From Lachnospiraceae bacterium (GTDB taxonomy: Bacteria > Bacillota > Clostridia > Lachnospirales > Lachnospiraceae): a stretch of 54,346 bases of DNA. Shown piece by piece: positions 36,197-50,344 of the stretch. The notes under the pieces were generated by a model. It worked only from the letters and a program-made list of their open reading frames with translations, had not been told where the DNA came from and ran no database searches. Where the stretch lies: positions 1 through 54,346 of the forward strand of contig JAFYYN010000033.1 of NCBI GenBank assembly GCA_017557525.1, written 5' to 3'. The position numbers were made by a program, and so were the translations under genes. The stretch's first letter is position 1. Each line of letters opens with the position of its first letter.

Positions 36197-37150
36197 ATGG
36201 GATTATTCAGCAGATTGTTTTCGGGGTTAAGTAAGACCAGAAAAAGCATTGCAAGCGGACTTAGCAGCATATTCAGCGCATTTTCTTCGATAGATGACGA
36301 TTTCTACGAGGAGCTTGAGGAGACGCTTATCATGGCCGATCTTGGTATAAACGCCACGGAGGCCATAGTTGAAAACCTTAAGGAAAAGGTTAAGGAAAAT
36401 AAGATCAAAAAGCCCGAGGAGTGCAGGCAGCTGCTCATAGACAGTATCGAGGAGCAGATGACGGTACCTGAGGACGCTTATGAATTTGAAAACCGCAAAT
36501 CGGTTGTTATGGTAATCGGTGTTAACGGAGTCGGTAAGACCACATCCATCGGAAAGCTCGCAGGACAGCTTAAGGGCATGGGTAAAAAGGTGCTTGTTGC
36601 AGCTGCGGATACATTCAGAGCTGCAGCTATCGAACAGCTTACCGAGTGGACCAACAGGGCAGGAGTTGAGATAATCGCCCAGTCAGAAGGCTCGGATCCG
36701 GCTGCCGTTGTTTTTGATGCTGTTTCCGCAGCAAAATCAAGAAAAACCGATATCCTTCTCTGTGATACCGCAGGGCGTCTACATAACAAGAAAAACCTTA
36801 TGGACGAGTTAAAGAAGATCAACAGGATCGTTGACAGGGAATACCCTGACTGTTACCGCGAGACACTTGTTGTGCTCGATGGTACAACAGGACAGAACGC
36901 ACTTGCTCAGGCTAAGCAGTTTAGCGAGGTAGCTGATATCACAGGTATCATCATAACCAAGCTTGACGGCACGGCAAAGGGCGGTATTGCGGTTGCGATA
37001 CAGAAGGAGCTTGGCATACCGGTTAAGTATATCGGTGTCGGAGAGCATATCGACGACCTTCAGAAATTTGATCCTCATTCATTCGTTGAAGCGCTTTTCA
37101 GCATCAGGGAAACCGTATCTGAAAACGATGAAGAAGAGGAAGAACAGTAA
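36197..37150 (+). CDS. ftsY: Signal recognition particle receptor FtsY
   Basis: GTPase that docks SRP-ribosome complexes to the Sec translocon. The 317-residue protein has a short amphipathic N-terminus (MGLFSRLFSGLSKTRKS) rather than a long acidic A domain, a four-helix N domain, and a G domain with GVNGVGKTTS (about 109-118), DTFRAAAIEQL, DTAGRLHNKKNLM, TKLDGTAKGG and GVGEHIDDLQKFD. The acidic tail (NDEEEEEQ) is short. A long hairpin follows. Confidence 0.97.
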   Translation: MGLFSRLFSGLSKTRKSIASGLSSIFSAFSSIDDDFYEELEETLIMADLGINATEAIVENLKEKVKENKIKKPEECRQLLIDSIEEQMTVPEDAYEFENRKSVVMVIGVNGVGKTTSIGKLAGQLKGMGKKVLVAAADTFRAAAIEQLTEWTNRAGVEIIAQSEGSDPAAVVFDAVSAAKSRKTDILLCDTAGRLHNKKNLMDELKKINRIVDREYPDCYRETLVVLDGTTGQNALAQAKQFSEVADITGIIITKLDGTAKGGIAVAIQKELGIPVKYIGVGEHIDDLQKFDPHSFVEALFSIRETVSENDEEEEEQ

Positions 37151-37170
37151 AACTTTTTATAACAAAATAT

Positions 37171-37222
37171 AAAGATATCCACCACCTTATAGCGTAGCGA
37201 AGGCGGGGGGATATCTTTGTTT
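37171..37222 (+). terminator. Long hairpin terminator after ftsY
   Basis: AAAGATATCC (37171-37180) and GGATATCTTT (37209-37218) are a perfect ten-base inverted repeat. The pairing extends inward through CCACCTT with AAGGCGGGG. The run TCTTTGTTT follows, so this is probably the terminator of the plsX-ftsY block. Confidence 0.75.
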
Positions 37223-37319
37223 CAGTCGGGGTAAAAGCCACGACTGAAATGAGATGCGAATCATCATTTGGTTACCGGGGAAACGCGGAAGGCATTTTCG
37301 AGGTGACATTGACCATTTC
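37220..37319 (+). ncRNA. Structured leader or small RNA upstream of the CPBP gene
   Basis: After the terminator the spacer keeps folding. TTTCAGTCG (37220-37228) and CGACTGAAA (37241-37249) form a perfect nine-base stem with a 12-base loop. ATGAGAT and ATCATCAT (about 37250-37267) form a bulged stem capped by GCGA, a GNRA tetraloop. GTTACC (37271-37276) can pair with GGTGAC (37302-37307). I know no RNA family that matches. It may be the 5' leader of the CPBP gene or an independent small RNA. Confidence 0.4.
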
Positions 37320-37334
37320 AAGGAGTAACAGATT

Positions 37335-38249
37335 TTGGAAAACAATAACGAAAATTTGAGTACACAAGAGGAACGCTATATCCCCGAACAGTACAAGGAA
37401 GGCCATCCGAACCCGACTAAGGCAATAATATTGACCTTCCTTATCATGCTTACATTCATTGTAATCCAGGTCGTTGTAATGATACCGTTTATGATGCCCG
37501 GAGTCATGACTACATTGACCGAGGTTAAGAAAAGCGGGACAATGCTGAATGACGATGAGCTTACCCGGGCTATGCTGGGCAATGTGGATACCATTGCACT
37601 TACGGTTATAGCAACATTTATTTCGGCACTGGTCGCTGTACTGTGGTACCGTCTGGCATATTGCAGGAATTATGGATTTGCAGAGCTTAAGAAGACGTGT
37701 AAAAGAGTATTTAATTTAAGATCTGTCGGGGGGATAGTGCTTGCGGCCATATCTCTTTTCTACATGGCAAATTATATAACAGCCTTAGTTGGGTATATAA
37801 GTCCGTCCGCACTAAAGGAATACAATGATATTATCGAAAGCCTTAACCTTGACATGTCCGATGGGCTGGTGATCATCCTTACGGTGGTACTAGCACCGAT
37901 CAACGAAGAGTGCATAATGAGAGGTATTATCTTTACATACCTTAAGAAAAATATGCATGTATATATTGCCATTGCCATCAGTGCTGTCTATTTCGGTATA
38001 TTTCACCTTAATGTCATTCAGGGAGTATATGCAGCTGTGCTCGGTCTGTTTATGGCGTATCTTGCATATAAATACAAATCCATCATTGCATCAATGTTAT
38101 TCCATGCAGTATTTAACGGACTGAATTTCATTATCATCCTGTTCCCGGAAAACGTTCAGAACAGCGCAGCTCTGGGCATTATAATACCGATAGTTACCGG
38201 AGTCCTTTGGTTTTTCGTGGAAGGAAGAAGGAAAATTGAAGAAAATTGA
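37335..38249 (+). CDS. CPBP-family intramembrane glutamic endopeptidase
   Basis: A 304-residue polytopic membrane protein of the CPBP (CAAX/Abi) family. Its catalytic motifs are EECIMRG with Glu191, Glu192 and Arg196, FHLNVIQG with His224, and FHAVFNG with His257 and Asn261. About seven or eight helices are visible. Bacterial members act in bacteriocin maturation or immunity, or in cleaving anti-sigma factors; no substrate is evident here. TTG 37335 follows AAGGAG nine bases upstream. A new promoter follows the gene, so it is separate from the coiled-coil operon. Confidence 0.87.
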   Translation: MENNNENLSTQEERYIPEQYKEGHPNPTKAIILTFLIMLTFIVIQVVVMIPFMMPGVMTTLTEVKKSGTMLNDDELTRAMLGNVDTIALTVIATFISALVAVLWYRLAYCRNYGFAELKKTCKRVFNLRSVGGIVLAAISLFYMANYITALVGYISPSALKEYNDIIESLNLDMSDGLVIILTVVLAPINEECIMRGIIFTYLKKNMHVYIAIAISAVYFGIFHLNVIQGVYAAVLGLFMAYLAYKYKSIIASMLFHAVFNGLNFIIILFPENVQNSAALGIIIPIVTGVLWFFVEGRRKIEEN

Positions 38250-38269
38250 AGAAATTGCTTGATTTTTGT

Positions 38270-38298
38270 TGATTTTATGAAAAATTAAGTGTATAATA
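38270..38298 (+). promoter_or_regulatory. Promoter of the coiled-coil/XpaC/TelA operon
   Basis: TTGATT (38270-38275), a 17-base spacer and a consensus TATAAT (38293-38298). The leader of about 75 bases holds a G-rich/U-rich stem (GGGGGAAAA with TTTTTCTCC) and a GCTGT/ACAGC hairpin (38348-38365) just before GGAGG of the first gene. Confidence 0.8.
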
Positions 38299-38379
38299 AT
38301 ACAGAATAGGGGGAAAATTGACTTTTTCTCCTCTTATTGGGGTTTATGCTGTACAAAAAAACAGCTATGGAGGTTAAGT

Positions 38380-41214
38380 ATGGACAGAGCAGACAATCAG
38401 GCCGCTGAGAAGAACAAAGAATCAGGGAAGTCTTTAGGAGATCTCTTAAGGGCGCTTAATTCTTTCCAGGATTCGCTCGGCGAAATGATGGATGAAAACG
38501 AGGTAGCGGAGTTTACCTTCAATGACAAGAATATTGTCTTTGGAACCGGTTACCGTATCGGTATCCCTGACGGCTTTAAGGTTAATCTTCAGTCAGTCAG
38601 TGCCAACGGCCAGGGAAGGGACTTCCTTGCATGGGTTCCCAGCGAAAATGAAAAGCAGGACTTTGTACTTGCCGATGCAGACGAGGAAAAGCCCATAGAG
38701 CTTCTTCATAACGGAAACGGGACTGCCGACGGTAAGACAGGTTACGATCTTGCCAAAGAAGTTTATGATGATATGGTAAGCGGCGGTGTTAACAAATCAA
38801 AGCTTTACCTTAAGGAATATTCTTTTGGGAAAATTACAGGCGGTTTTATTAGACGTGTTATGTCGTCCATGTGCTGCAATTACTATGTGTTCTTGGAGCT
38901 GAACGGACGTGTATTAAAGTTACGTGTAATTTTTAACAACAAATATTCAACCGAAAGTATGGACGGTACTGTCACAGCATGGCTGGATACTCTTACCTGG
39001 GCAGGAAACGAGGCTGCAGAGGCAGAAAGAAATAACAAGGCTAAGGAAGAGGAAGAACGTAAGGCAAGGGAAGAAGCTGAGCGTAAGGCAGCCGAGGAGG
39101 CAGCAAGGAGAGCTGAGGAAGAGGCAAAGCGTGCCGCTGAGGAAGCAGCTCGCAAGGCTGAAGAAGAAAGAAAGAGAAAAGAAGAGGAAGAGCGTAGAGC
39201 AGCCGAAGAAGCAGCTCGCAAGGCTGAGGAAGAGGCAAGGAAAGCCGAAGAAGAAAGAAAGAGAAAAGAAGAGGAAGAACGTAGAGCAGCCGAAGAAGCA
39301 GCCCGCAAAGCTGAGGAAGAGGCAAGGAAAGCCGAAGAAGAAAGAAAGAGAAAAGAAGAGGAAGAGCGTAGAGCCGCTGAAGAGGCAGCTCGCAAAGCTG
39401 AGGAAGAGGCAAGGAAAGCCGAAGAAGAAAGAAAGAGAAAAGAAGAGGAAGAGGCTAAAGCCGCTGAGGAAGCAAAGCGTAAAGCCGAGGAAGAAGCAAA
39501 GAAGGCTGAGGAAGAGCGCTTAGCAACACTTGCAAAGGTAGAGGCAGCAAGAAAGATCGCTTCTGATAAGGCTAGGGAAGAGGCTGCAAGATTAGAGATA
39601 GAAAAGGCTGAAAAGGAAAAGCTTGAGTCAGAGCGTGCAGCAAAGGAAGCAGAAGAAAAGGCTAAGGAAGAGGCTATAAGACTTGCTAAAGAGGCTGAGG
39701 AAAAGGCTAAGGCTGATGCAGCAAGGATAGCTAAGGAAGAAAAGGAAGCAGAAGAAAGAGCAGCAGCTGAAAAGGCAGCAAAGGAAAAGGCAGCTGCTGA
39801 AAGACTTGCTATAGAAAAGGCAGCTAAGGCTGCAGCAGAGCGTGCAGCAAAGGAAGCAGCCGAGAAAGAAAAGGCTGAAAGAGAGGCAGCAGAAAGAGCA
39901 GCCAGAGAGGCAGCCGAGAAGGAAAAGGCTGAAAGAGAGGCAACAGAAAGAGCAGCCAGAGAGGCAGCCGAGAAAGAAAAGGCTGAAAAGGAAGCAGCCG
40001 AGCGTGCGGCAAAGGAGGCTGCAGAGAAAGCAAGACTTGAGCAGGAAGCCAAGGAGGCTGAAAGAATAGAGGCAGCCAAGGCAGCAGCTATGGCAGCAGC
40101 AGAAAAAGCACGTTCAGAGGAAGATGCAAGGATCGCGGCTGCAAAGGCAGCAGCTTTAGAACGTGCTTCAGAAGAAGCTAAGTCCAAGGAAGCAGAGAGG
40201 ATTGCAGCAGCTAAGGCAGCTGCAGCTCAGTATGAGATAGAGCGTGCTATTTCGAAGGGTGACAGTTCGGTAGTTGGCGCCGGTATAAGTGCCGGAGCGG
40301 TAGCAACAAACGATGCTGAAAAGAGTGCTACAGCAAAAGCAGAAAGCGTTGAAGCAGAGCGTCTTGCAGAAAAGCAGAGAAGAGATGAGCTCAGACAGCG
40401 TGAGGAAAGAAGACGCGAGGAAGAGCAGCTTCAGAGATTAGAGGAAGAAAAGCGTCATCAGCAGTTAAAGAAGCATGCTGAGGACTTAAGAAATCAGGAA
40501 GATGTTGCAGTAAGCCAGCTTAAGGCTGAAAAGGAAAAGCTTATTCAGGAGAGAGTACAGATCGCGGCTGAGATTAACGAGTGCATGCTCGAAAAGGCTG
40601 AGATCGAGAAGCAGTACGATTTAGAGCGTACACAGTTCCTACAGGTTGAGAATCAGGTTAACGCAACACTGTTTAATGCACAGGGCAGAAAGAAAGATCT
40701 TGAGGCTCAGGCTCAGGAGTCGGAAAACAGATACTCCTATAAAGAGCAGACCGAAAAGAAGAGACTTCTTAAGTTAAAGGATGATTTAAGGACTGCATTT
40801 GCTGCAGTAGAGCTTGCAGGAGAAATAGAGGCTATCTTCAGAGAGAAGGCAGCTTCCGGCAATAAGAAGAAATCACTCCTTTATAAGCAGAAGACTGAGG
40901 ACAGAGAAAATGCCGAGAAAGAGCTTGATTCAATTAAGAATCAGTTCGAGATAGCTCAGATTAACAGCAAGGCTACTATCGAAGAACATCAGAAGGTAAA
41001 GGAAAAGTTCGACAAGGATTTAGCCGCTATTAATGAGACCATCGAGGAAAATCAGTCAGTCATATCTGCAAAGAAGGAAAGCATGCAGGTATTAAAGGAC
41101 AGAAGCAAGGCTGTCGATGACAGAAGGGCAGTAGCAAATAAGAAGATTAAAGAAATAGAAGATTCAATGCGTGATATAGACGTCAGGATCAGGGAAGAAG
41201 AGGCAAAACACTAA
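38380..41214 (+). CDS. Giant Ala/Glu/Lys/Arg-rich single-helix/coiled-coil protein
   Basis: I do not recognise this 944-residue protein. A globular N-terminal domain (about 1-210) has a motif GYRIGIPDGFKVNL and a CC pair in SSMCCNYYVF. Then about 410 residues are almost only A, E, K and R, in patterns such as AARKAEEEARKAEEERKRKEEEERRAAEE, typical of a stable single alpha-helix. A short break (about 625-645, VVGAGISAGAVATN) leads to a more ordinary coiled coil (about 665-944). No signal peptide or membrane helix is seen, so it is probably cytoplasmic, bridging about 60 nm if fully helical. It heads an operon with XpaC and TelA relatives. A strand-opposite open frame is a shadow of the repeats. 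Confidence 0.8.
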   Translation: MDRADNQAAEKNKESGKSLGDLLRALNSFQDSLGEMMDENEVAEFTFNDKNIVFGTGYRIGIPDGFKVNLQSVSANGQGRDFLAWVPSENEKQDFVLADADEEKPIELLHNGNGTADGKTGYDLAKEVYDDMVSGGVNKSKLYLKEYSFGKITGGFIRRVMSSMCCNYYVFLELNGRVLKLRVIFNNKYSTESMDGTVTAWLDTLTWAGNEAAEAERNNKAKEEEERKAREEAERKAAEEAARRAEEEAKRAAEEAARKAEEERKRKEEEERRAAEEAARKAEEEARKAEEERKRKEEEERRAAEEAARKAEEEARKAEEERKRKEEEERRAAEEAARKAEEEARKAEEERKRKEEEEAKAAEEAKRKAEEEAKKAEEERLATLAKVEAARKIASDKAREEAARLEIEKAEKEKLESERAAKEAEEKAKEEAIRLAKEAEEKAKADAARIAKEEKEAEERAAAEKAAKEKAAAERLAIEKAAKAAAERAAKEAAEKEKAEREAAERAAREAAEKEKAEREATERAAREAAEKEKAEKEAAERAAKEAAEKARLEQEAKEAERIEAAKAAAMAAAEKARSEEDARIAAAKAAALERASEEAKSKEAERIAAAKAAAAQYEIERAISKGDSSVVGAGISAGAVATNDAEKSATAKAESVEAERLAEKQRRDELRQREERRREEEQLQRLEEEKRHQQLKKHAEDLRNQEDVAVSQLKAEKEKLIQERVQIAAEINECMLEKAEIEKQYDLERTQFLQVENQVNATLFNAQGRKKDLEAQAQESENRYSYKEQTEKKRLLKLKDDLRTAFAAVELAGEIEAIFREKAASGNKKKSLLYKQKTEDRENAEKELDSIKNQFEIAQINSKATIEEHQKVKEKFDKDLAAINETIEENQSVISAKKESMQVLKDRSKAVDDRRAVANKKIKEIEDSMRDIDVRIREEEAKH
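39211..39471 (+). repeat. Three tandem 87-base repeats in the coiled-coil gene
   Basis: Copies start at 39211, 39298 and 39385 and encode the same 29-residue unit, beginning AARKAEEEARKAEEE. The copies are nearly identical at the DNA level, the last diverging at its end. A shorter 22-residue partial copy precedes them. The identity implies recent duplication and likely copy-number variation between strains. Confidence 0.9.
39856..40017 (+). repeat. Three tandem 54-base repeats in the coiled-coil gene
   Basis: Copies start at 39856, 39910 and 39964 and encode an 18-residue unit, AAEKEKAEREAAERAARE with small changes. This is a second, independent repeat family in the same helix. Confidence 0.85.
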
Positions 41215-41237
41215 GCTAGAGAAAGGCGGATTACAAA

Positions 41238-42572
41238 ATGACAGTAGATGAAATTTTTTCAAGCGAATCTGAGCATTTGTATTTCAGACTCATAGCTGCC
41301 CGAAATGCCTTAAATGCAGCCAACGATTCAGATACAATACAGGTGCTGAATGATATACTTGATGATACATTAAATAGTATTGACAGGATCGGAACCGACG
41401 AGGAAATAGCCGCTGCCGAGGAAATAGTTGTCAGAAAGAGCAATAAGACTGTTAAGGATTATCTTAGCAGCCAGAAATTTGCACTGATAGCTACCGCGGT
41501 AATGTTTGTTGCTGCAGTCGGAGCCGCTCTTGCACTGCTGCTCATTATACTGGGCGGCGGTGACATTTCAAAGATGATCAAGCCTATTGTTACCGTAGTA
41601 ATTATCGGCGGCGGTATTTTTGCCATGGCATTCTTCGTAACAAAATATATGAAGAAGCGTATGAATGCTGCCCGTGAGCAGCTTAACGGCAGGACAGTTA
41701 TAGGCTGCAGGATAAATACCGGTACAAAGACCGTATCTACAAAATCCACATCATCTTCAACTTCTGCAAGCAGCTCTTCTGCATCTGCTACCAAGCAGCG
41801 TGAGAGCAGACCTGCTTCGACAACTAAGACAAAGGTATACAGAAACTACTTTGGTATTATAAAGTGGGTTGTTATCTTAGGCGTTATAGGAGCTCTTGCT
41901 TTTGTAGTATTTACAAAGCGTGCCGAGATAGTTGATTCTGCAAAGACCATTATGTTTAATATCGGCATATATGATCCTGCAGGTGATGCAAACAGTGAGC
42001 GTTTCGCTGAGATCAGAAATACTCTTATCAATAAGAGAAAGGGTATCTGCTATAATGAGGCTGAAAAGCTTTTTGCCGAGGAGAAATTCTTTGAAGCAGC
42101 CGAAATGTACAATAACAGCTACGGTTACAATGATCAGATAGAGGCAAAGATTACTCTTGCTAACAACTGCGGACATTATGTAAATGCAGACGAGCTTGTT
42201 AAAACATCAATGTACCAGGCAAGAGTTGAGTTAAACAAGATCAAGCTTCCTTTCAGCGGTGTCAAGATCGGCGGAAAGGGAACTAAGAATGTTGATCTGG
42301 TATTAAAGCAGTACACCAGGTATCTTGATTTCACCGGTGTTTACGGCAGCGGAGATGATACCTTCAATATCAAGGATTTTGTAGTTAAGAATAATCAGGT
42401 TTATATCGTTGAGAATAAGCTTGGCGAGATGAAGATCAGTTCAGACATTGATCGTGAAGGTTATGAGTATCTTGTAGAAAAGAAGTCAGGCGAGGATGTT
42501 ACCCGGTGGTATATTGCTACCGATCATGTTCTTAAGGTAACCGGAGAAGAAGAAAAGAGACTTAAGAAATAA
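41238..42572 (+). CDS. Membrane protein of unknown function in the XpaC/TelA operon
   Basis: I do not recognise this 444-residue protein. An N-terminal helical segment (about 1-75) is followed by two membrane helices (about 80-107 and 112-135), a Ser/Thr-rich linker (about 160-195), a third helix (about 206-226, IIKWVVILGVIGALAFVVF) and an extracytoplasmic or cytoplasmic C-terminal region. That region has a TPR-like stretch (YNEAEKLFAEEKFFEAAEMYNNSYGYND) and a beta-rich end. It starts 23 bases after the coiled-coil gene with AAAGGCGG upstream. Confidence 0.75.
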   Translation: MTVDEIFSSESEHLYFRLIAARNALNAANDSDTIQVLNDILDDTLNSIDRIGTDEEIAAAEEIVVRKSNKTVKDYLSSQKFALIATAVMFVAAVGAALALLLIILGGGDISKMIKPIVTVVIIGGGIFAMAFFVTKYMKKRMNAAREQLNGRTVIGCRINTGTKTVSTKSTSSSTSASSSSASATKQRESRPASTTKTKVYRNYFGIIKWVVILGVIGALAFVVFTKRAEIVDSAKTIMFNIGIYDPAGDANSERFAEIRNTLINKRKGICYNEAEKLFAEEKFFEAAEMYNNSYGYNDQIEAKITLANNCGHYVNADELVKTSMYQARVELNKIKLPFSGVKIGGKGTKNVDLVLKQYTRYLDFTGVYGSGDDTFNIKDFVVKNNQVYIVENKLGEMKISSDIDREGYEYLVEKKSGEDVTRWYIATDHVLKVTGEEEKRLKK

Positions 42573-42601
42573 TTCCGTAATAAGGAAGGAGTTGCAACAG
42601 G

Positions 42602-43339
42602 ATGGCTAAGAAGTTCCAAAAAAGTCCCTGGAGCTCAGCAGGACCGGTTTATGTTGCTGCAGCGGCTTTTGTCGGGGGAGTACTTGTTTTCCCGGCTACT
42701 GCCTCGGGACTTTTTGTGGCGGGACTAACTTCATTCTGTGGTTGGGCTATCAGCAAGATGTTCTGGCCCAAAAAGTTAGTTGATGCTATAGAGGATACAA
42801 CTGCTAAACAACAGCAGGATATGGGTGAGGTAAAGCAGGAGGAAAAGAAGCCTGATATCGATCCCAATATCAAGAAACGCCCGAGAACAGGGGATCAGGC
42901 TATAGATTCCCTGCTGGATGAGGAAGAAAAGGCTATATCGGAAATGAGGCGTCTGGACAGAGCCATAGAGGACGAAAAGGTTTCTGCACAGATATTACAT
43001 CTTGAGGATGTAACTACCAAGATAGTAAACTTCATAGTCGATAATCCTCAGAAAAAGAGTCAGGTAAGAAAATTCTTTAATTACTACCTGCCCACAACTT
43101 TAAAGCTTTTAAATGCGTACGACAGGATGGATGAAACCGGCATTTCCGGTATGAACATCGACGGTACCAAGGGAAAGGTGGAAGAAATGATGGACACCTC
43201 CCTAGCCGCATTTGATAAACAGCTTGATGCGCTTTATGCCGATGATGCTCTTGATATTTCGGCAGAGATAAAGGTTATGGAGGGTATGCTGGCTCAGGAA
43301 GGTCTTAAGGACGATGCGATTTCGGGACTTAAGATGTAA
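42602..43339 (+). CDS. xpaC: XpaC-family protein
   Basis: A 245-residue protein with two N-terminal hydrophobic segments (about 15-33 and 35-52) and an XpaC domain in its C-terminal half, marked by RKFFNYYLPTTLKLLNAYDRM (split FFNYYLPTTLKLL is the core). XpaC was named for 5-bromo-4-chloroindolyl phosphate hydrolysis in Bacillus; its real role is unknown. In B. subtilis xpaC is next to yaaN, a TelA homologue, and the same pair is adjacent here. Confidence 0.85.
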   Translation: MAKKFQKSPWSSAGPVYVAAAAFVGGVLVFPATASGLFVAGLTSFCGWAISKMFWPKKLVDAIEDTTAKQQQDMGEVKQEEKKPDIDPNIKKRPRTGDQAIDSLLDEEEKAISEMRRLDRAIEDEKVSAQILHLEDVTTKIVNFIVDNPQKKSQVRKFFNYYLPTTLKLLNAYDRMDETGISGMNIDGTKGKVEEMMDTSLAAFDKQLDALYADDALDISAEIKVMEGMLAQEGLKDDAISGLKM

Positions 43340-43486
43340 ATGGAAATACTTTGGTTTAATTTGCACTAAACACAGAAGATTTAAGGACTATTTAATATTA
43401 TTTGCTCTATATTATATATGTAATGAGTGATAATATTATAAACGTTACAAAGTAATAAAAGCAGTTGATTAGGAGGAAATATTTTT

Positions 43487-44749
43487 ATGGATAACGGAAT
43501 GCCTTCGTTAACACTTGAACCCAATGCAATGGCAGCGCCTCAGGCACCTGCTGCAGCTACGGCACCTTCTATGCCCGAAGCAGTAGCACAGCCCCAGGCT
43601 TTTGATGCATTTGAGGTAAAGCAAGCACCTTCGGCACCCACACTGACACTTAATCCTCAGGCAGAGGAGCAGCAACAGCAGCAGCCTCAGCAGCAGAAGC
43701 AGGAAGATAACAGCGTTCAGATCAATGAGGATATGCTTACCGAAGAGGAAAAGGCTATCGTTAATGATTTTGCTTCAAAGATAGATATTTCCGATTCTAA
43801 TATGGTAATGACCTATGGTGCCGCTGCACAGCAACATATCGCATCCTTCTCTGAGTCAGCACTTAACAGTGTAAAGACAAAGGATTTAGGTGAGATAGGC
43901 GAGACACTTTCATCTCTGGTAGTTCAGTTAAAGACCATGGACGAGCCTGAGAAAAAGGGTATTGCAGGCTGGTTCCAGAAGAAAAAGCATGACCTTGAGG
44001 CTATGAAGGCTAATTATTCAAAGGCTGAGGCTAATGTTGATAAGATAGTTGAAATGCTCGAGCAGCATCAGGTAACCCTTATGAAGGATATCGCACTGTT
44101 CGATCAGATGTATGACTTAAATCTTAAGTACTATAAAGAGCTTACCATGTACATAATCGCAGGTAAGAAGAGACTTGCAGAGGTACGTGCTACAAAGCTC
44201 CAGGAGCTCCGTGTTAAGGCAGAGCAGTCCGGTTCACAGGAAGATGCACAGGCATATAATGACTTTGCAAACTTATGTGACAGATTTGAGAAAAAGCTAC
44301 ATGACTTAGAGCTTACCCGTATGATCTCAATTCAGATGGGTCCTCAGACCAGAATGCTCCAGAACAACGATACTTTAATGGTAGAGAAGATACAGTCATC
44401 TATCGTTAATACTATCCCTCTCTGGAAGTCACAGATGGTACTTGCACTCGGTATCGAGCATGGACGTCAGGCTACAGCAGCTCAGTCGGCAGTTACCAAT
44501 ATGACAAATGAGCTCTTAAGAAAGAATGCTGAGACATTAAAGATGGCTACTATCGAGACTGCTAAGGAAGCAGAGAGATCAGTAGTTGATATCGAGACCT
44601 TAAAGGCTACAAATGAGAACCTTATCACAACACTCGACGAGGTTATGAAGATCCAGAGCGAAGGCAAGGCAAAACGTGCAGCAGCCGAGCAGGAGCTTGG
44701 AAGGATCGAAGGCGAGTTAAAGACAAAGCTTATGGAGCTCAGAAGCTAA
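43487..44749 (+). CDS. TelA-family (toxic anion resistance) protein
   Basis: A 420-residue helical protein. An Ala/Pro/Gln-rich start (about 1-70, with a QQQQQPQQQK run) precedes a TelA domain (about 80-415). Typical features are KDLGEIGETLSSLVVQLK, KKGIAGWFQKKK, the middle KDIALFDQMYDLNLKYYKELTMYIIAGKKRL (long helix) and NTIPLWKSQMVLALG near 310. TelA proteins associate with tellurite and other stress resistance, but the mechanism is not settled. AGGAGG precedes ATG 43487. The 147-base gap upstream is AT-rich; I could not place a convincing promoter in it. Confidence 0.9.
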   Translation: MDNGMPSLTLEPNAMAAPQAPAAATAPSMPEAVAQPQAFDAFEVKQAPSAPTLTLNPQAEEQQQQQPQQQKQEDNSVQINEDMLTEEEKAIVNDFASKIDISDSNMVMTYGAAAQQHIASFSESALNSVKTKDLGEIGETLSSLVVQLKTMDEPEKKGIAGWFQKKKHDLEAMKANYSKAEANVDKIVEMLEQHQVTLMKDIALFDQMYDLNLKYYKELTMYIIAGKKRLAEVRATKLQELRVKAEQSGSQEDAQAYNDFANLCDRFEKKLHDLELTRMISIQMGPQTRMLQNNDTLMVEKIQSSIVNTIPLWKSQMVLALGIEHGRQATAAQSAVTNMTNELLRKNAETLKMATIETAKEAERSVVDIETLKATNENLITTLDEVMKIQSEGKAKRAAAEQELGRIEGELKTKLMELRS

Positions 44750-44783
44750 AGCAGACGCATTTTTACTAAAGGATGGATTGTAA

Positions 44784-45806
44784 GTGGGAAAGATAAAGAG
44801 CTTTTTCCAAAAAACAGGAGTTGCTATTGCGGTTCTTGCGATGACAGTCATAGGTGCCATTAAATTGTCTCCTGCCTTAACAGATCCGGGAGTACTTTCA
44901 CAGGCACTTACCGTTGCCGGCGGACTCGTTGGAGCCGGAGCGGTCATGATAGGCTGCGGTATAGGAAAAGCAGTCCAGTCATCTAAGGAGAAAAAACTTT
45001 TAAAGCAATATAACGAGCCTGAACTTGAGAAGCCTAAGCAGACGGCAAATGACTTCGTAAACGGAGCAAAGAATACAGCCGGCAGCTTTGCAAACGGCTT
45101 TAATAACGGTTATAACAAGCAAAATGATTTTGGCCAGAAAATGGGCCATGCTGCCGAAAGAATCGGTGAAAAGGTTGGCGAGGGAGCCAATAAGCTGGGT
45201 GTAAAGTTAAATGAGATCTTTAATAACCAAAACAGACCCAATACCTCGGCTAATCCTTACAGTTCTACTGTAAATACCGGCAGTAATCCCTATAGCTCCC
45301 GAGACAGGATGTCGGCCGGATACGGCGGGACCTATAACGGAAAGCAGTATGGAAACAGTTATACCGGTGATGTAAGGGATGCCCGTCAGATGGGAAATAC
45401 CGGCGGATATTACAGCGGTCAGAACCAGAATTACAATAATAATTCCGGCAATCGTTATAATAATGGAAATAACGGCCGTAACGGACAGAACGGGAAAAAC
45501 GGGTACAACGGCAATAACAGACAGAACCAGGGCAGTTATAACTACAACAATCAATACCAGAATCAGAACGTACAGTATGGCGGACAGAATAACAGACCGT
45601 CAAACAATAACTATAATAATCAGAACGTTCAGTATGGCAGTTACCAGAACGGAAGGAGTCAGAACGGTAATTCAACCTATGGCGCTCAGAATACCAATAT
45701 ACCGAATACAAGCGGCTTAGAGGAGAGCGCAAAGACAAATTACTTTGATAATGAACCCGGAAGTTCATCGTACAGAAGCGGCCCGTTAAAAAAGGAAAAA
45801 ATCTGA
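44784..45806 (+). CDS. Membrane protein with long Asn/Gly/Tyr/Gln-rich tail
   Basis: A 340-residue protein I do not recognise. Two hydrophobic segments (about 11-28 and 38-57) are followed by a charged stretch, a Gly-x-x-hydrophobic amphipathic region (AERIGEKVGEGANKLGVKL), and about 200 residues dominated by N, G, Q, Y and S, such as YNNGNNGRNGQNGKNGYNG. This resembles prion-like disordered domains that can condense. The start is GTG 44784 with AAAGGATGG upstream. The stop shares one base with the xth start, so the operon may continue into xth. Confidence 0.75.
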   Translation: MGKIKSFFQKTGVAIAVLAMTVIGAIKLSPALTDPGVLSQALTVAGGLVGAGAVMIGCGIGKAVQSSKEKKLLKQYNEPELEKPKQTANDFVNGAKNTAGSFANGFNNGYNKQNDFGQKMGHAAERIGEKVGEGANKLGVKLNEIFNNQNRPNTSANPYSSTVNTGSNPYSSRDRMSAGYGGTYNGKQYGNSYTGDVRDARQMGNTGGYYSGQNQNYNNNSGNRYNNGNNGRNGQNGKNGYNGNNRQNQGSYNYNNQYQNQNVQYGGQNNRPSNNNYNNQNVQYGSYQNGRSQNGNSTYGAQNTNIPNTSGLEESAKTNYFDNEPGSSSYRSGPLKKEKI

Positions 45807-46558
45807 TGAAATTCATATCATGGAATGTAAACGGTCTTCGTGCATGTATGCAGAAGGGCTTTATGGACAGCTTTAAAGCACTTGATGCAGATATCTTCTG
45901 CCTGCAGGAAACAAAGCTACAGGCAGGGCAGCACGAGTTAGAGCCGGAAGGATATTATCAGTACTGGAATTATGCCGAGAAAAAGGGATATTCCGGTACT
46001 GCTATTTTTACTAAGAAAAAACCACTAAGTGTCACATATGGCATAGGAGTGGAGGAGCATGACCACGAAGGGCGCGTAATTACGCTCGAATTTGAAGATT
46101 TTTACTTCATAGTGGTGTATGTTCCCAATTCCCAGCGTGAACTGGCAAGACTTTCCTATCGTATGGAGTGGGAAAAGGCATTTTTAGATTATATCTTAGG
46201 TCTTGAACAGAAAAAACCGGTTATTTACTGTGGTGACTTAAATGTTGCCCATCAGGAGATAGACCTTAAGAATCCCAAGACAAACCATATGAATGCCGGT
46301 TTTACCGATGAGGAAAGAAACTGCTTTACAAAGGTACTGCAAAGCGGCTACATAGACTCCTTCAGGTATTTTTATCCTGATAAAAAGGACATTTATTCCT
46401 GGTGGTCCTATATGTTCAAATCCCGTGAGAAGAATGCAGGCTGGCGTATAGATTACTTTGTTGTATCCGAAAAACTGAAGGACAGGATGAAAGACGCATC
46501 GATCCATAATGAGATACTCGGGTCCGACCATTGTCCGGTGGAGCTGGATATAGAATAA
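45806..46558 (+). CDS. xth: Exodeoxyribonuclease III / AP endonuclease
   Basis: Repairs abasic sites and trims 3' ends. The 250-residue EEP-fold nuclease shows WNVNGLRACMQKGF, FCLQETKLQ (metal Glu), YVPNSQ, CGDLNVAHQEIDLKNPK, WRIDYF and GSDHCPVEL with catalytic Asp and His. It is a close match to the Firmicute ExoA type. ATG 45806 overlaps the previous stop by one base. Confidence 0.96.
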   Translation: MKFISWNVNGLRACMQKGFMDSFKALDADIFCLQETKLQAGQHELEPEGYYQYWNYAEKKGYSGTAIFTKKKPLSVTYGIGVEEHDHEGRVITLEFEDFYFIVVYVPNSQRELARLSYRMEWEKAFLDYILGLEQKKPVIYCGDLNVAHQEIDLKNPKTNHMNAGFTDEERNCFTKVLQSGYIDSFRYFYPDKKDIYSWWSYMFKSREKNAGWRIDYFVVSEKLKDRMKDASIHNEILGSDHCPVELDIE

Positions 46559-46572
46559 TCTTAAAAAAGTAC

Positions 46573-46601
46573 TTGACATTCGTAAGGTTTTACAGTATTA
46601 T
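46573..46601 (+). promoter_or_regulatory. Promoter of tRNA-Arg
   Basis: Consensus TTGACA (46573-46578), a 17-base spacer and TATTAT (46596-46601), about 25 bases before the tRNA. This is one of the strongest-looking promoters in the window. Confidence 0.85.
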
Positions 46602-46625
46602 AAGAAAGTCGTTGAAAAACGAAAT

Positions 46626-46699
46626 GTGTGTGTAGCTCAGCTGGATAGAGCGTCTGGCTACGGACCAGAAGGTCGCGAGTTCGAATCTTGTCACACACA
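46626..46699 (+). tRNA. tRNA-Arg (anticodon ACG)
   Basis: A full cloverleaf is visible: acceptor GTGTGTG (46626-46632) with CACACAC (46692-46698) and discriminator A; D-arm GCTC...GAGC; anticodon stem TCTGG/CCAGA with loop CTACGGA, giving anticodon ACG (read as ICG for CGU/CGC/CGA); T-arm GCGAG-TTCGAAT-CTTGT. The 3' CCA is not encoded, so it must be added. Confidence 0.95.
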
Positions 46700-46705
46700 T
46701 AAGCG

Positions 46706-46742
46706 TAGCCTCAAACCTCCAAAAGTTTGGGGCTATTTTTAT
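46706..46742 (+). terminator. Intrinsic terminator after tRNA-Arg
   Basis: TAGCCtCAAAC (46706-46716) pairs fully with GTTTGgGGCTA (46725-46735), with one G-U pair and an eight-base loop, followed by TTTTTAT. Confidence 0.9.
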
Positions 46743-46815
46743 ACTAAACGAAACTGTTCATCTCACGGATATCGAAAAGAAGATTTGTGAGATGGAAGTA
46801 ACCAGGGAGTTAATA

Positions 46816-47541
46816 ATGAATAAAAGAAAAAACACAGGCAGGGTAGCAGCCGCAACAGTGCTGATATCAGTCCTGATGCTCATATTTGGTACATTTACAA
46901 TCAATTCCTATGCAGCAGAATATAACGCTATAAGAAATTCTGTGATTTTGACAGAAGTGGTCGCAACAGACACAGATGAAAGTGTTAAGGCTGATACCTT
47001 AACTACAGGGACGGATACAACAGGTGAAACCACAGAAAAGCCTTCGCTCGGAGAAAGGATTGCAAATAAACTCTCAGGGCTTCCTGACGAGCTCGTTTGC
47101 TTTGTCGTTTCCATGATACCCATTGTGGAGCTCAGAGGCGGGCTTATAGTAGCTGCTATAAAGGGGTTACCGCTTTGGCGTGCCGTAGCAGTCTGCATAG
47201 CAGGAAACCTGGTACCCATACCTTTTATCCTGCTGCTTATAACTCCTATATTTGCATGGCTTAAAAAGACTAAACTGTTCAGACCCATAGTTGAGAAGTT
47301 AGAGAAAAAATCTATGGGAAAGAGCGACAGGATTAAGAAATATGAGTTTTTGGGCCTGGTACTCTTTGTAGGGATACCGCTGCCCGGTACAGGTGCCTGG
47401 ACTGGCTCTCTCATAGCTTCGCTGCTTGAGATAAAGATAAAGAAAGCCTTTCCTGCAATATGCCTCGGACTCATTATGGCTACGATTATCATGTGCTTTA
47501 TAACCTATGGTATACCGTGGCTGGTAGCTAATGTATTCTGA
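46816..47541 (+). CDS. Small multidrug-export-type membrane protein (COG2426 family)
   Basis: A protein of about 241 residues with an N-terminal signal peptide (AATVLISVLMLIFGTF, likely cut after NSYA), a Thr/Glu-rich spacer and a membrane domain with the family start PIVELRGGLIVAAIKGLPLW and GIPLPGTGAWTGSLIASLL. The family is named for putative small multidrug export, but evidence of transport is thin. I prefer ATG 46816, six bases after GGGAG, to ATG 46792, which lies inside one arm of an inverted repeat (CATCTCAC 46759-46766, GTGAGATG 46787-46794). Confidence 0.8.
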   Translation: MNKRKNTGRVAAATVLISVLMLIFGTFTINSYAAEYNAIRNSVILTEVVATDTDESVKADTLTTGTDTTGETTEKPSLGERIANKLSGLPDELVCFVVSMIPIVELRGGLIVAAIKGLPLWRAVAVCIAGNLVPIPFILLLITPIFAWLKKTKLFRPIVEKLEKKSMGKSDRIKKYEFLGLVLFVGIPLPGTGAWTGSLIASLLEIKIKKAFPAICLGLIMATIIMCFITYGIPWLVANVF

Positions 47542-47621
47542 TTTGATTCTGTATACTGATCACATTTGCGGTTTTAGCTTGGGCAATTAAGACCGGCATG
47601 CACCTGCCTGATTTATAACAT

Positions 47622-48461
47622 ATGGAAAAACAAAGAAGCATAACAAAAGAACAGCTTGCTGATCTGATAAAGAAATATAAAATAGGAAAGAAGCCCCTTT
47701 CAAAGCTTTTAGGATGGGGCGAAACCACAGTGCTTTTATACAGCGCCATGGATGTTGTGCCTGATAATGAGTACACCGAAAGACTTTACCAGCTCTATAT
47801 AGACAAGGGACAGTATCTTGAGGTGCTTTTGCAGAATCGCAGCAATATCACTGATATTGCTTTCAGGAAAAGCCTCAGAGCGATTCACGAGCCAATCTTT
47901 GAAAACAAGATCCTGGTAACAGCCCAGTATATTATCGATATCAATAAAAGAGCCATATCCCAGGCACGTCTCGATGTAATACTTATGTGGTCGCAGATCA
48001 TGTCGCTTTATCTCTTAGACAAGCCGATATTTGAGGACATTTATCAGCCCTCAAAGGGAAATGGAAATTCTCCTTACAGGATTGTGGCAGAAAAGTACAA
48101 AGAGAAGCATTTCTTCTCACTCAGTGAGGACCATGTGGTAGAGGAGATGAAGGATAATCTCTACGAGGCATTTAAGACCAAATTGGAGCCTGTACTTACG
48201 GACAAAGTAAAAGAGATTGTTACCCATATTTCTGATATGTTTGCATGGTATGGGGAAAAGGCGTTCTTAAGCATTCTTGCTTCAGAGCGTTTCAGGCTTT
48301 GCGGGCCTCCCGATTCAAAAATCCGCCGTTCTGCATCAAACGATATGCTGAAAAAGGTATATTCCGACGTATTTGAACAGGCAAAGGTTAAGAAATTAAC
48401 TGATCTGGATAGCTTTATATCAAAGAGAATAGATATCTTAAGGAAAAAAATAGGAGATTGA
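47622..48461 (+). CDS. HTH protein with a possible Panacea/DUF4065-like domain
   Basis: A 279-residue protein. The N-terminal region (about 6-65) reads like the helix-turn-helix of MqsA-type antitoxins: LADLIKKYKIGKKPLSKLLGWGETTVLLYS. The middle (about 100-160; VTAQYIIDINKRAISQARLDVILMWSQIMSLYLLDKPIFED) resembles the SocA/GepA (Panacea, DUF4065) fold used by many antitoxins, with the usual LQKLLYY segment degenerate. The rest is helical and unassigned. No clear ribosome binding site precedes ATG 47622, and no toxin-like partner is adjacent. The identification is a suggestion from pattern only. Confidence 0.65.
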   Translation: MEKQRSITKEQLADLIKKYKIGKKPLSKLLGWGETTVLLYSAMDVVPDNEYTERLYQLYIDKGQYLEVLLQNRSNITDIAFRKSLRAIHEPIFENKILVTAQYIIDINKRAISQARLDVILMWSQIMSLYLLDKPIFEDIYQPSKGNGNSPYRIVAEKYKEKHFFSLSEDHVVEEMKDNLYEAFKTKLEPVLTDKVKEIVTHISDMFAWYGEKAFLSILASERFRLCGPPDSKIRRSASNDMLKKVYSDVFEQAKVKKLTDLDSFISKRIDILRKKIGD

Positions 48462-48476
48462 CTTTCGTCAATCTCC
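48453..48476. terminator. Bidirectional terminator between the HTH gene and typA
   Basis: GGAGATTGAC (48453-48462) and GTCAATCTCC (48467-48476) form a perfect ten-base stem with a TTTC loop, overlapping the stop of the plus-strand gene. On the minus strand it is followed by TATTTTTTT, which makes a strong terminator for typA; the plus side has ATTTCTTT. Confidence 0.88.
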
Positions 48477-48520
48477 ATTTCTTTGCTTATATTTTTCTGC
48501 CTTTTTACGGGTCTTGATTA

Positions 48521-50344
48521 TCATTTCTTAAATCCGGCACGCTTACGGAGTGTAGGATCAAGTATCTTCTTACGGATTCTTAAGTTCTTGGGAGTAACCT
48601 CCAAAAGCTCGTCGTCATCTATGAATTCTAACGCCTGTTCCAAAGACAGGATCTTAGGAGGTGTAAGCCTCAATGCTTCATCAGCGCTTGAAGAACGTGT
48701 GTTGGTCATCTGCTTACGCTTACATACATTAAGCTCGATATCCTCACCCTTACCGCTCTGGCCGACAACCATACCTGCATATACCTGTTCACCGGGACCG
48801 ATGAAAAGAGTACCTCTTTCCTGTGCGTTGTATAGGCCGTAGGTAACTGTCTCGCCACCTTCAAATGCTATAAGGCTGCCCTGCTTTCTGAATGAGATAT
48901 CTCCTTTATAAGGACCATAGTCATCGAAAATAGTATTAAGTATACCATTTCCCTTTGTATCAGTCATAAACTCGCCCCTGTAACCTATAAGTCCTCTGGC
49001 AGGGATACTGAATTCAAGTCTTGTATATCCGCCTGAAACGGTTGACATGCCTAAAAGTTCACCTTTACGTGAACTGAGCTTTTCAATAACTGTACCTGAG
49101 AACTCATCGGGTACGTCAACAACGGCACGCTCCATGGGCTCAAGCTTTTCCCCATTCTCGCCCTTTTTAAAGATAACCTGTGCTTTACTTACAGCAAACT
49201 CATATCCTTCACGGCGCATAGTCTCGATAAGGATTGAAAGATGAAGCTCGCCACGGCCAGAAACCTTAAATGCCTCGGTGGTATCAGTTTCTTCAACTCT
49301 TAAGCTAACGTCTGTATTTAATTCTCTGAATAATCTGTCTCTCAAATGTCTTGAAGTAACCCACTTGCCTTCCTTGCCTGCTAAAGGAGAGTCGTTTACT
49401 ACGAAATTCATTGAAAGGGTGGGCTCAGAAATCTTTTGGAAAGGAATAGCCTCAACCTGATCGGGAGAGCAGAGTGTATCACCGATATGGATATCCTCGA
49501 TACCTGAGAAAGCAACTATGGAACCGATAGTAGCCTCCTGTACCTCAACCTTCTTTAAGCCCTCATACTCATAAAGCTTGCTGACCTTAACCTTCTTGGT
49601 CTTTGAAGGATCATGATAATTAACTATCACTACATCCTGACCAACCTTTATGGTACCGTTGTCAACCTTACCAACACCGATCCTGCCGACATATTCATTG
49701 TAATCTATAGTACTTACAAGTACCTGAGTACCGCGCTCGGGGTCGCCCTCCGGAGCGGGTATGTATTCAAGTATAGTATCAAAGAGAGGCTTCATGTTCT
49801 CAGGCTTGTCCTCAAGCTCTAAGATAGCAACGCCTGACTTTGCAGATGCATAAACAAAAGGACAGTCAAGCTGCTCGTCACTGGCATCAAGCTCGATAAA
49901 GAGCTCAAGTACCTCATCGATAACACGCTTGGGGTCAGCCTCGGGACGGTCAATCTTGTTGATACAGCAGATAACGGGAAGATTAAGCTCGAGAGCCTTC
50001 TTTAAAACAAATTTGGTCTGGGGCATGGGGCCCTCAAAAGCGTCAACAACAAGGATTACGCCGTTAACCATTTTAAGTACACGTTCAACCTCACCGCCGA
50101 AATCAGCGTGACCGGGTGTGTCTATGATATTAATTTTTACTCCGTTGTAATTAACAGCAGTATTCTTGGAAAGTATTGTGATACCACGTTCCTTTTCAAG
50201 ATCGTTGGAATCCATTACTCTTTCCTCAACTACCTGATTCTGACGGAATACACCGCTCTGACGCAGAAGTGCATCAACCAGGGTAGTTTTACCATGGTCT
50301 ACATGGGCTATGATAGCTATATTACGGATATCTTCTCGTTTCAT
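48521..50344 (-). CDS. typA: Ribosome-associated GTPase TypA/BipA
   Basis: A 607-residue translational GTPase related to EF-G that helps 50S assembly and growth under stress or cold. The G domain has AHVDHGKTTLVDALL, the switch ERERGITILSKNTA-type segment (LEKERGITIL), DTPGHADFGGEV and NKIDRPEADP. EF-G-like domains follow, and the BipA-specific C-terminal domain ends in RIRKKILDPTLRKRAGFKK. The ribosome binding site GAGAGG lies seven bases before the ATG on the minus strand. It is divergent from thrH. I saw no clean promoter for it. Confidence 0.97.
   Translation of the reverse strand: MKREDIRNIAIIAHVDHGKTTLVDALLRQSGVFRQNQVVEERVMDSNDLEKERGITILSKNTAVNYNGVKINIIDTPGHADFGGEVERVLKMVNGVILVVDAFEGPMPQTKFVLKKALELNLPVICCINKIDRPEADPKRVIDEVLELFIELDASDEQLDCPFVYASAKSGVAILELEDKPENMKPLFDTILEYIPAPEGDPERGTQVLVSTIDYNEYVGRIGVGKVDNGTIKVGQDVVIVNYHDPSKTKKVKVSKLYEYEGLKKVEVQEATIGSIVAFSGIEDIHIGDTLCSPDQVEAIPFQKISEPTLSMNFVVNDSPLAGKEGKWVTSRHLRDRLFRELNTDVSLRVEETDTTEAFKVSGRGELHLSILIETMRREGYEFAVSKAQVIFKKGENGEKLEPMERAVVDVPDEFSGTVIEKLSSRKGELLGMSTVSGGYTRLEFSIPARGLIGYRGEFMTDTKGNGILNTIFDDYGPYKGDISFRKQGSLIAFEGGETVTYGLYNAQERGTLFIGPGEQVYAGMVVGQSGKGEDIELNVCKRKQMTNTRSSSADEALRLTPPKILSLEQALEFIDDDELLEVTPKNLRIRKKILDPTLRKRAGFKK

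Follow-up and report, generated by a model that had tools for sequence, protein, structure and literature searches.

Roughly every second Lachnospiraceae genome sampled here encodes XpaC, which makes up, together with its partner TelA, a widespread and little understood stress pair. The locus described below raises the question of whether three further genes, which enclose the xpaC-telA pair in one clade, belong to the same system, and what such a system would do. The locus lies in a window of 54,346 nucleotides (the whole stretch of DNA that was analysed), which is contig 196 (JAFYYN010000033.1) of a 3.93-Mb draft genome of a Lachnospiraceae bacterium (GCA_017557525.1). Five open reading frames (ORFs) of 944, 444, 245, 420 and 340 amino acids (aa) follow one another there on the plus strand in the order P1, P2, xpaC, telA and P5, and all coordinates below refer to this strand unless stated otherwise. 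A sequence-only reading had proposed that they form one five-gene operon behind a single promoter, possibly an envelope or stress system in which a cytoplasmic scaffold is linked to membrane partners. The gene order, the shared strand and the identities of XpaC and TelA were borne out by Pfam matches and by conservation in relatives, so that these are no chance ORFs. The notion of an obligate set of five had to be given up: the general unit is xpaC-telA, and P1, P2 and P5 seem to have been added in one clade. What the sequence itself shows is gene order, conservation, promoter-like elements, a P5 without the TPM domain and a common motif. With slightly less than even confidence, we interpret the locus as a clade-specific elaboration of an xpaC-telA envelope-stress module, the products of which may form a membrane-anchored complex working like PspA-YdjGHI.

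Distribution of the five genes

The comparison covered 24 genomes of the genus (G000–G023, 64–100% complete, several of them incomplete drafts), 250 genomes of the family Lachnospiraceae and 391 genomes of the class. TelA was found in 22 of the 24 genus genomes, the N-terminal head of P1 in nine, its coiled coil (the last 232 residues) in eight, the P2 N-terminus in eight and the P5 N-terminus in nine. The P1 coiled coil and P2 occur together in G000, G001, G003, G006, G008, G010, G017 and G020, and the ninth P5 genome is G013, the contig of which ends just before xpaC. As far as the contigs extend, P1, P2 and P5 are found at the xpaC-telA locus, and the whole block lies on a single contig in six genomes, whereas in G001 and G006 contig ends cut through it. 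In 13 of the 22 telA-bearing genomes, several of which are incomplete drafts, whole-genome searches for the P1 head, the P1 coiled coil and the N-termini of P2 and P5 all came back empty. Draft contigs break inside the Glu/Lys/Ala repeat of P1 (G006 C6/C94, G014 C40), so P1-like genes are possibly undercounted. The block-bearing clade (P1-P2-xpaC-telA-P5) is hereafter called group A, and its sister lineages in the same genus groups B and C; one genus thus holds several ARRANGEMENTS of xpaC-telA. In a TelA tree, groups A (9 rows), B (5) and C (6) are each split off by one branch, with supports of 83/82, 100/99 and 90/95, respectively. TelA copies in ter-like clusters of two other genomes (G024 L064, G026 L066), the neighbours of which we take by eye to be Ter genes, are only 25–26% identical to the window TelA.

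Beyond the genus, XpaC was detected in 122 of the 250 family genomes at E 0.001 (118 above cut-off), and 40 loci, one per genome and chosen non-randomly, were taken from these 122. xpaC stands beside telA in 38 of the 40, and one gene lies between them in the other two (L152:5409-6470 and L153:3416-4474), encoding a protein of ~350 aa with an N-terminal membrane helix; the L152 copy, the only one scanned, gave no Pfam match. The P1 head profile matched two of the 250 family genomes, one match being judged spurious, and one of the 391 class genomes, which is the window's own. Since xpaC-telA is widespread without the other three in a family where the P1 head is essentially absent, and 13 of 22 telA genomes of the genus lack P1, P2 and P5, the five genes are not an obligate set and the three are a clade-specific addition; the finding of xpaC-telA alone in close relatives is the first of two findings, the other being separate transcripts, that the sequence-only reading had named as together speaking against itself. 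Genes on the same strand within 200 bp of the family loci (42 neighbours) matched 69 Pfam families, and among the 25 of these that were listed the commonest were GcpE (5 of 42) and DHFR_1 (4 of 42); the GcpE/IspG and DHFR neighbours in L152–L191 perhaps reflect one sublineage.

A scan with the P1 head returned 11 loci, every one of them titled as a Lachnospiraceae metagenome-assembled genome. The sources named in five titles are the rumen of sheep, water buffalo or goat, the omasum of goat, or the faeces of horse; the remainder mostly carry RUG or RUI isolate names, which we take to denote rumen collections. The block belongs to one gut-bacterial group known mostly from ruminants.

The gene after telA and a shared motif

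The core pair is well defined. xpaC (42602-43339, 245 aa) matches PF10112 (Halogen_Hydrol/XpaC) at E 6.6e-19 and encodes an N-terminal hydrophobic segment, judged by hydropathy, followed by a helical domain. telA (43487-44749, 420 aa) matches PF05816 at E 5.3e-123 as its sole Pfam family, and its product shows no transmembrane (TM) segment by hydropathy. The N-terminal tail of TelA carries two [PS][ST]LTLxP motifs (43502-43522 and 43637-43657), and a relaxed, PTLTL-like pattern, located in the disordered N-terminus, was found post hoc in 36 of 40 family TelA proteins as against 5 of 288 other ORFs.

P5 (44784-45806, 340 aa) is a membrane protein with a low-complexity tail, as had been proposed; more precisely, it has two TM helices lying close together by hydropathy, an Asn/Gly-rich tail of 245 aa (23% N, 15% G) and an almost invariant C-terminus, and its identity to the window protein is 63–83% (9 rows). 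No Pfam match was obtained for P5 up to E 0.1, and the TPM domain (PF04536) was not found in it. In the six genomes of group B, by contrast, the gene behind xpaC-telA encodes a TPM-type (PF04536) membrane protein; among the four loci scanned with Pfam, L051, L052 and L055 lie above the PF04536 cut-off and L056 below it. Upstream of the pair in L055 are an FtsX-type permease and an ABC ATPase (Pfam), with similar ORFs in L051, L052 and L056. Group C is mixed in this slot, with a TPM-type gene in G004 (above cut-off) and G016 (below), an N-acetylmuramoyl-alanine amidase in G009 (Pfam) with look-alikes in G005 and G022, and a gene judged by eye to be sugar epimerase-like in G019.

P5 occupies the same slot after telA as the TPM proteins, and its first helix aligns with the first helix of group B TPM over 22 columns with 45% identity (hhalign), the probability being 88% (E 2.9e-6) in a single comparison of the N-termini only and 74% (E 2.9e-5) for whole proteins. 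This helix match is suggestive only. Both proteins also possess a second helix and a low-complexity tail; between the helices lies the TPM domain in TPM proteins, and merely about ten residues in P5. The likeness in slot, first helix and tail supports descent or replacement rather than membership of the TPM family, and P5 may be read as a TPM-type protein that has lost its exterior domain or as a replacement in the same slot.

A linear motif, NPYS[SG], appears to change its carrier along the same lines. It occurs twice in every P5 (9/9; NPYSS at 45252-45266 and 45285-45299 in the window), once in each group B TPM protein (6/6) and once in each group C XpaC (7/7, one incomplete), and was never seen in two proteins of one locus. 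It is absent from XpaC of group A (0/9) and group B (0/5, the sixth being cut off), from the six available third genes of group C, from P1 (0/7) and P2 (0/7), and from TelA in 20 genomes of the genus, the window's among them. The longest string common to group C XpaC and the P5 tail is SANPYSST or NPYSST, a length equalled by 0–12 of 2000 shuffles per genome, and the corresponding DNA pattern is not enriched in the genome.

P1, P2 and the transcription unit

P1 (38380-41214) is the first of the five ORFs, matched no Pfam family, and is 79–90% identical to the window protein in relatives (7 rows, window included). It had been described as a single helix, a description that has to be replaced by three parts. 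The head (residues 1–215, 38380-39024) is alpha/beta-like, with a mixed composition including 11% P+G and 10% aromatic residues; its identity to the window is 79–93% in group A and 52% in G014, and it had no match in Pfam, NCBIfam or PHROG. An AlphaFold2 model of the head reached a mean predicted local distance difference test score (pLDDT) of only 47, and gave no Foldseek match at E 0.001 or better, a Mog1/PsbP-like fold having been compared. The middle part (residues 216–640, 39025-40299) is a charged rod of the single-alpha-helix type, by composition and by charge pairing at i/i+3 and i/i+4: residues 216–380 consist of A, K, E, R and N only, residues 381–640 are of Ala/charged composition, and opposite charges alternate over a long run without a hydrophobic seam, P or G, the charge-pair score being about 1.0 per residue over residues 241–380. 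The rod is partly encoded by an 87-bp tandem repeat of 4.1 copies, total P1 length varies among relatives, and the 425 residues of this part would span ~64 nm if fully helical, at 0.15 nm per residue. Residues 641–944 are coiled-coil-like, and from residue 650 onwards (40327-41211) this C-terminal region is 85–95% identical to six relatives. An antisense ORF of 434 aa within P1 (38883-40187, minus strand) is probably a by-product of the repeat composition and no gene.

P2 (41238-42572, 444 aa) has the three hydrophobic helices that had been ascribed to it (about residues 87–105, 117–135 and 207–225 by hydropathy), and the TPR-like segment of its variable C-terminal domain is weakly supported. 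Pfam gave a sub-threshold DUF2207_C match only. Its overall identity to the window protein, 51–86% (7 rows), conceals a gradient against six relatives from 88–96% in residues 1–80 to merely 38–84% in residues 206–444, as expected of a protein constrained inside and variable outside, under a topology inferred from charge. The full P2 profile made weak partial matches in six other family genomes. A P2-type N-terminal segment was also observed in G091 (L141:8010-10151); the protein that bears it is of single-TM type and is encoded immediately after a coiled-coil ORF of 345 aa. The segment scores 27.6 bits as against 8.5 for the best of 1000 shuffles, and the 345-aa coil had no sequence match to P1.

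Upstream of the block, promoter 1 (TTGATT-17-TATAAT, 38269-38297) lies 82 bp before the P1 start and has 10 of 12 consensus matches, both hexamers being invariant in all eight group A upstream regions, window included. The P1-P2 gaps are 23–24 bp (8 genomes) and the P2-xpaC gaps 29–30 bp in six of seven, with 48 bp in one. The supposition of one promoter for all five genes is incomplete, given a second, conserved promoter-like element in the 147-bp gap between xpaC and telA. This element comprises a TAATTTGC box (43357-43364), a downstream TTTAAG-N5-TTTAA[GT] direct repeat with an 11-bp period (43380-43396) and, 34 bp after the repeat, an extended -10 (TGA-TAATAT, 43428-43436). Box and repeat are present in the same six of nine xpaC-telA gaps (G000, G001, G003, G006, G013 and G020); in each of the six, 0–6 of 1000 shuffles gave as good a repeat, the spacing to the extended -10 is 34–35 bp in the five relatives, and the -10 has 4–6 of 6 matches across the six genomes. 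The gap in the other three genomes is 28–62 bp without the second element, and no such element was seen before xpaC in 11 genomes of groups B and C. Repeats of the form hexamer-N5-hexamer are characteristic of OmpR-type response regulators. With the internal element, a transcript of telA-P5 on its own becomes plausible in six of nine genomes.

The cluster as such is conserved, and its proposed end at P5 is unclear, because the first base of exo (45806-46558, endonuclease/exonuclease/phosphatase family, PF03372) coincides with the final base of the P5 stop codon in the window, and exo may thus belong to the unit as a sixth gene; the P5-exo gap ranges from -4 to 89 across nine genomes. Directly behind exo is a tRNA-Arg(ACG) gene (46625-46700), preceded by a promoter-like site and followed by a terminator-like hairpin. 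Downstream flanks of the block are exo and an Sm_multidrug_ex gene, and upstream a CPBP/Rce1-like protease gene (37335-38249; PF02517, E 2.2e-20) stands before promoter 1 in the window and precedes P1 in seven relatives as well. In the group A genomes ftsY precedes CPBP and the block, and G017 and G020 have an additional gene of ~200 aa in between. Among eight block-free genomes, ftsY is followed by ylxM-ffh-type genes (named by eye) in G004, G009, G014, G016 and G022, with one extra gene between in G014, and lacks them in G015, G019 and G023. In the block clade (36197-38249 in the window) smc-ftsY is accordingly apart from the ylxM-ffh-type genes, and it is close to them in five of the eight relatives (comparison with L135, L136, L138, L142, L143).

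A candidate envelope-stress complex and its known relatives

The products of the block may well form a patch under the cell membrane that aids survival of envelope damage. In the arrangement that we favour, soluble, helical TelA would be held at the inner membrane face by XpaC together with a third membrane protein bearing a cytosolic disordered tail, often a TPM-domain protein in the sister lineages and P5 here. P2 would contribute a fast-evolving exterior domain and, on the cytosolic side, a conserved N-terminal segment for docking. P1 would contribute a charged rod some 60 nm long, whose head and coiled coil are conserved and which could tie such patches together or connect them to another structure. 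Promoter 1 would provide a basal transcript, and the second, direct-repeat promoter would raise telA-P5(-exo) upon envelope damage. What we infer here is that a complex forms, how its members are oriented in the membrane, that it is induced, and that it protects against agents acting on membrane or wall. The protein anatomy fits the earlier idea of a cytoplasmic scaffold with membrane partners. The proposed envelope or stress role likewise fits the sigma-W and CesSR literature cited below, as far as those sources go, and the sister context of an ABC exporter, a TPM protein and a cell-wall amidase. There is moderate evidence that P5 belongs to the xpaC-telA module, and weaker evidence that P1 and P2 do.

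Several observations weigh against this interpretation. The P5-TPM match consists of one short hydrophobic helix; the group B TPM model found TPM in 0 of the 40 family loci, and TPM is absent among the 25 listed of the 69 families at the 42 family neighbours, so TPM looks like a genus-level partner rather than a general one. The NPYS[SG] and TelA motifs were spotted and tested on the same sequences, they sit in low-complexity tails, which may have converged, and none of the 40 family XpaC proteins carries NPYSS. By sequence, the TelA profile was unrelated to E. coli PspA (hhalign probability 0.7%, E 0.082). G014 (94% complete) has a P1-head gene elsewhere, truncated by a contig end, and a genome search found no telA, P2 N-terminus or P1 coiled coil in it; the P2-like N-terminus of G091 also sits outside the block context. 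Finally, the CPBP, exo and Sm_multidrug flanks are as syntenic as the five genes, so gene order within one genus is no proof of joint function.

The last of these points, from G014 onwards, would equally suit an arrangement in which two modules, a rod and membrane protein (P1-P2) and xpaC-telA-P5, stood side by side with position alone conserved and no common function. G091, where the P2-type segment directly follows a coiled-coil ORF, is not among the 122 XpaC genomes, and the second promoter-like element divides the cluster before telA in six of nine genomes. We nevertheless consider this arrangement rather unlikely, given that, within the genus, the P1 coiled coil, P2 and P5 occur solely in genomes bearing the locus (8, 8 and 9 of 24), that the gaps from P1 to xpaC are tight, and that telA presumably relies on read-through in the three genomes lacking the second element.

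The long rod and conserved coiled coil of P1 would also suit a cytoskeleton-like scaffold for shape or division, in which P1 polymerises via its coiled coil, the membrane proteins position it and stress is secondary. Published hints point the same way: Lactococcus lactis llmg_1115 is listed as 'XpaC-like protein; Involved in cell morphology' (PMC3139573), and deletion of ydjG/ydjH is reported in the passages cited to deform Bacillus subtilis cells under alkali shock (PMC8581546). The restriction of the P1 coiled coil to just 8 of 24 genus genomes and the lack of a Pfam match for P1 make such a scaffold improbable in our view. Detoxification of tellurite or other toxic anions, suggested by the Pfam and PHROG family names and by a Lactococcus cremoris small RNA that, in the part of the account cited, lowers Orf53, TelA, TelB and TelC together with tellurite resistance (PMC13109727), is very improbable, since no metal or Ter family was matched among the five genes and five neighbours, TelA of ter-like clusters is so distant from that of the window, and other papers, in the parts cited, place xpaC-telA in envelope stress (PMC3498285, PMC3139573, PMC12791056).

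Returning to the envelope-stress complex, a bolder version of it, which we regard as speculative and doubtful, would make TelA-XpaC with a TPM-type anchor a second, PspA-independent membrane-surveillance machine. The portable NPYS[SG] would mark the membrane protein that recruits TelA and would move between subunits, and this clade would have swapped the TPM exterior for the P1 rod and a fast-evolving P2 exterior sensor, leaving the core unchanged. The genus offers a natural experiment in this respect: the module comes in several arrangements, its linear motif sits on different carriers, and one partner is missing a domain that its sister counterpart has. The role of XpaC and TelA thereby becomes a matter of testable contacts between the TelA tail motif, the NPYS motif and the TPM/P5 tail, for which PspA-YdjH logic is suggested as a model; in the literature collection searched, no paper brought the TPM domain and TelA together.

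Among known systems, the Ter systems share the TelA family with the block; TerB, TerC and TerD were not matched among the ten window proteins scanned with Pfam (the five genes and five neighbours, 37335-50344), and PADLOC assigned none of the five proteins to a defence family at E 0.01. A jumbo-phage review names TelA, in the passage cited, among components forming sub-membrane structures (PMC7824862). Closer are the cellular pairs in which xpaC adjoins telA as it does here: B. subtilis xpaC-yaaN, described as a core sigma-W unit (PMC3498285), and Listeria lmo1966-lmo1967, described as a putative operon (PMC12791056). In L. lactis, the XpaC-like llmg_1115 and telA1 are tabulated with raised transcript levels in a study of CesSR and the overproduction of membrane proteins (PMC3139573). 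The cited parts of the B. subtilis and Listeria accounts describe no partners of the P1, P2 or P5 type, and the window differs from both in its three clade-specific genes and its second promoter-like element.

The B. subtilis pspA-ydjGHI system resembles the block in combining, under envelope stress, a soluble helical protein with integral membrane partners, one of which has TPM plus a low-complexity segment (PMC8581546, PMC11237479); in the portions of these papers cited, YdjH is described as having TPM plus a low-complexity segment or a long coiled coil (PMC11237479) and is proposed as the membrane anchor of PspA/YdjI (PMC8581546). The block differs in that P5 lacks TPM and that no SPFH/band-7 match was obtained among the ten window proteins scanned. 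The sister xpaC-telA-TPM clusters (L051, L052, L055, L056) share with it xpaC-telA itself, the third-gene slot, a similar first TM helix and the NPYS tail motif, and differ in the TPM exterior domain, the ABC exporter genes upstream and the want of P1 and P2. These clusters appear to follow PspA-YdjH logic with TelA in the place of PspA, and, as TelA is no PspA homologue by sequence, they would work like a phage-shock-protein system rather than be a member of one.

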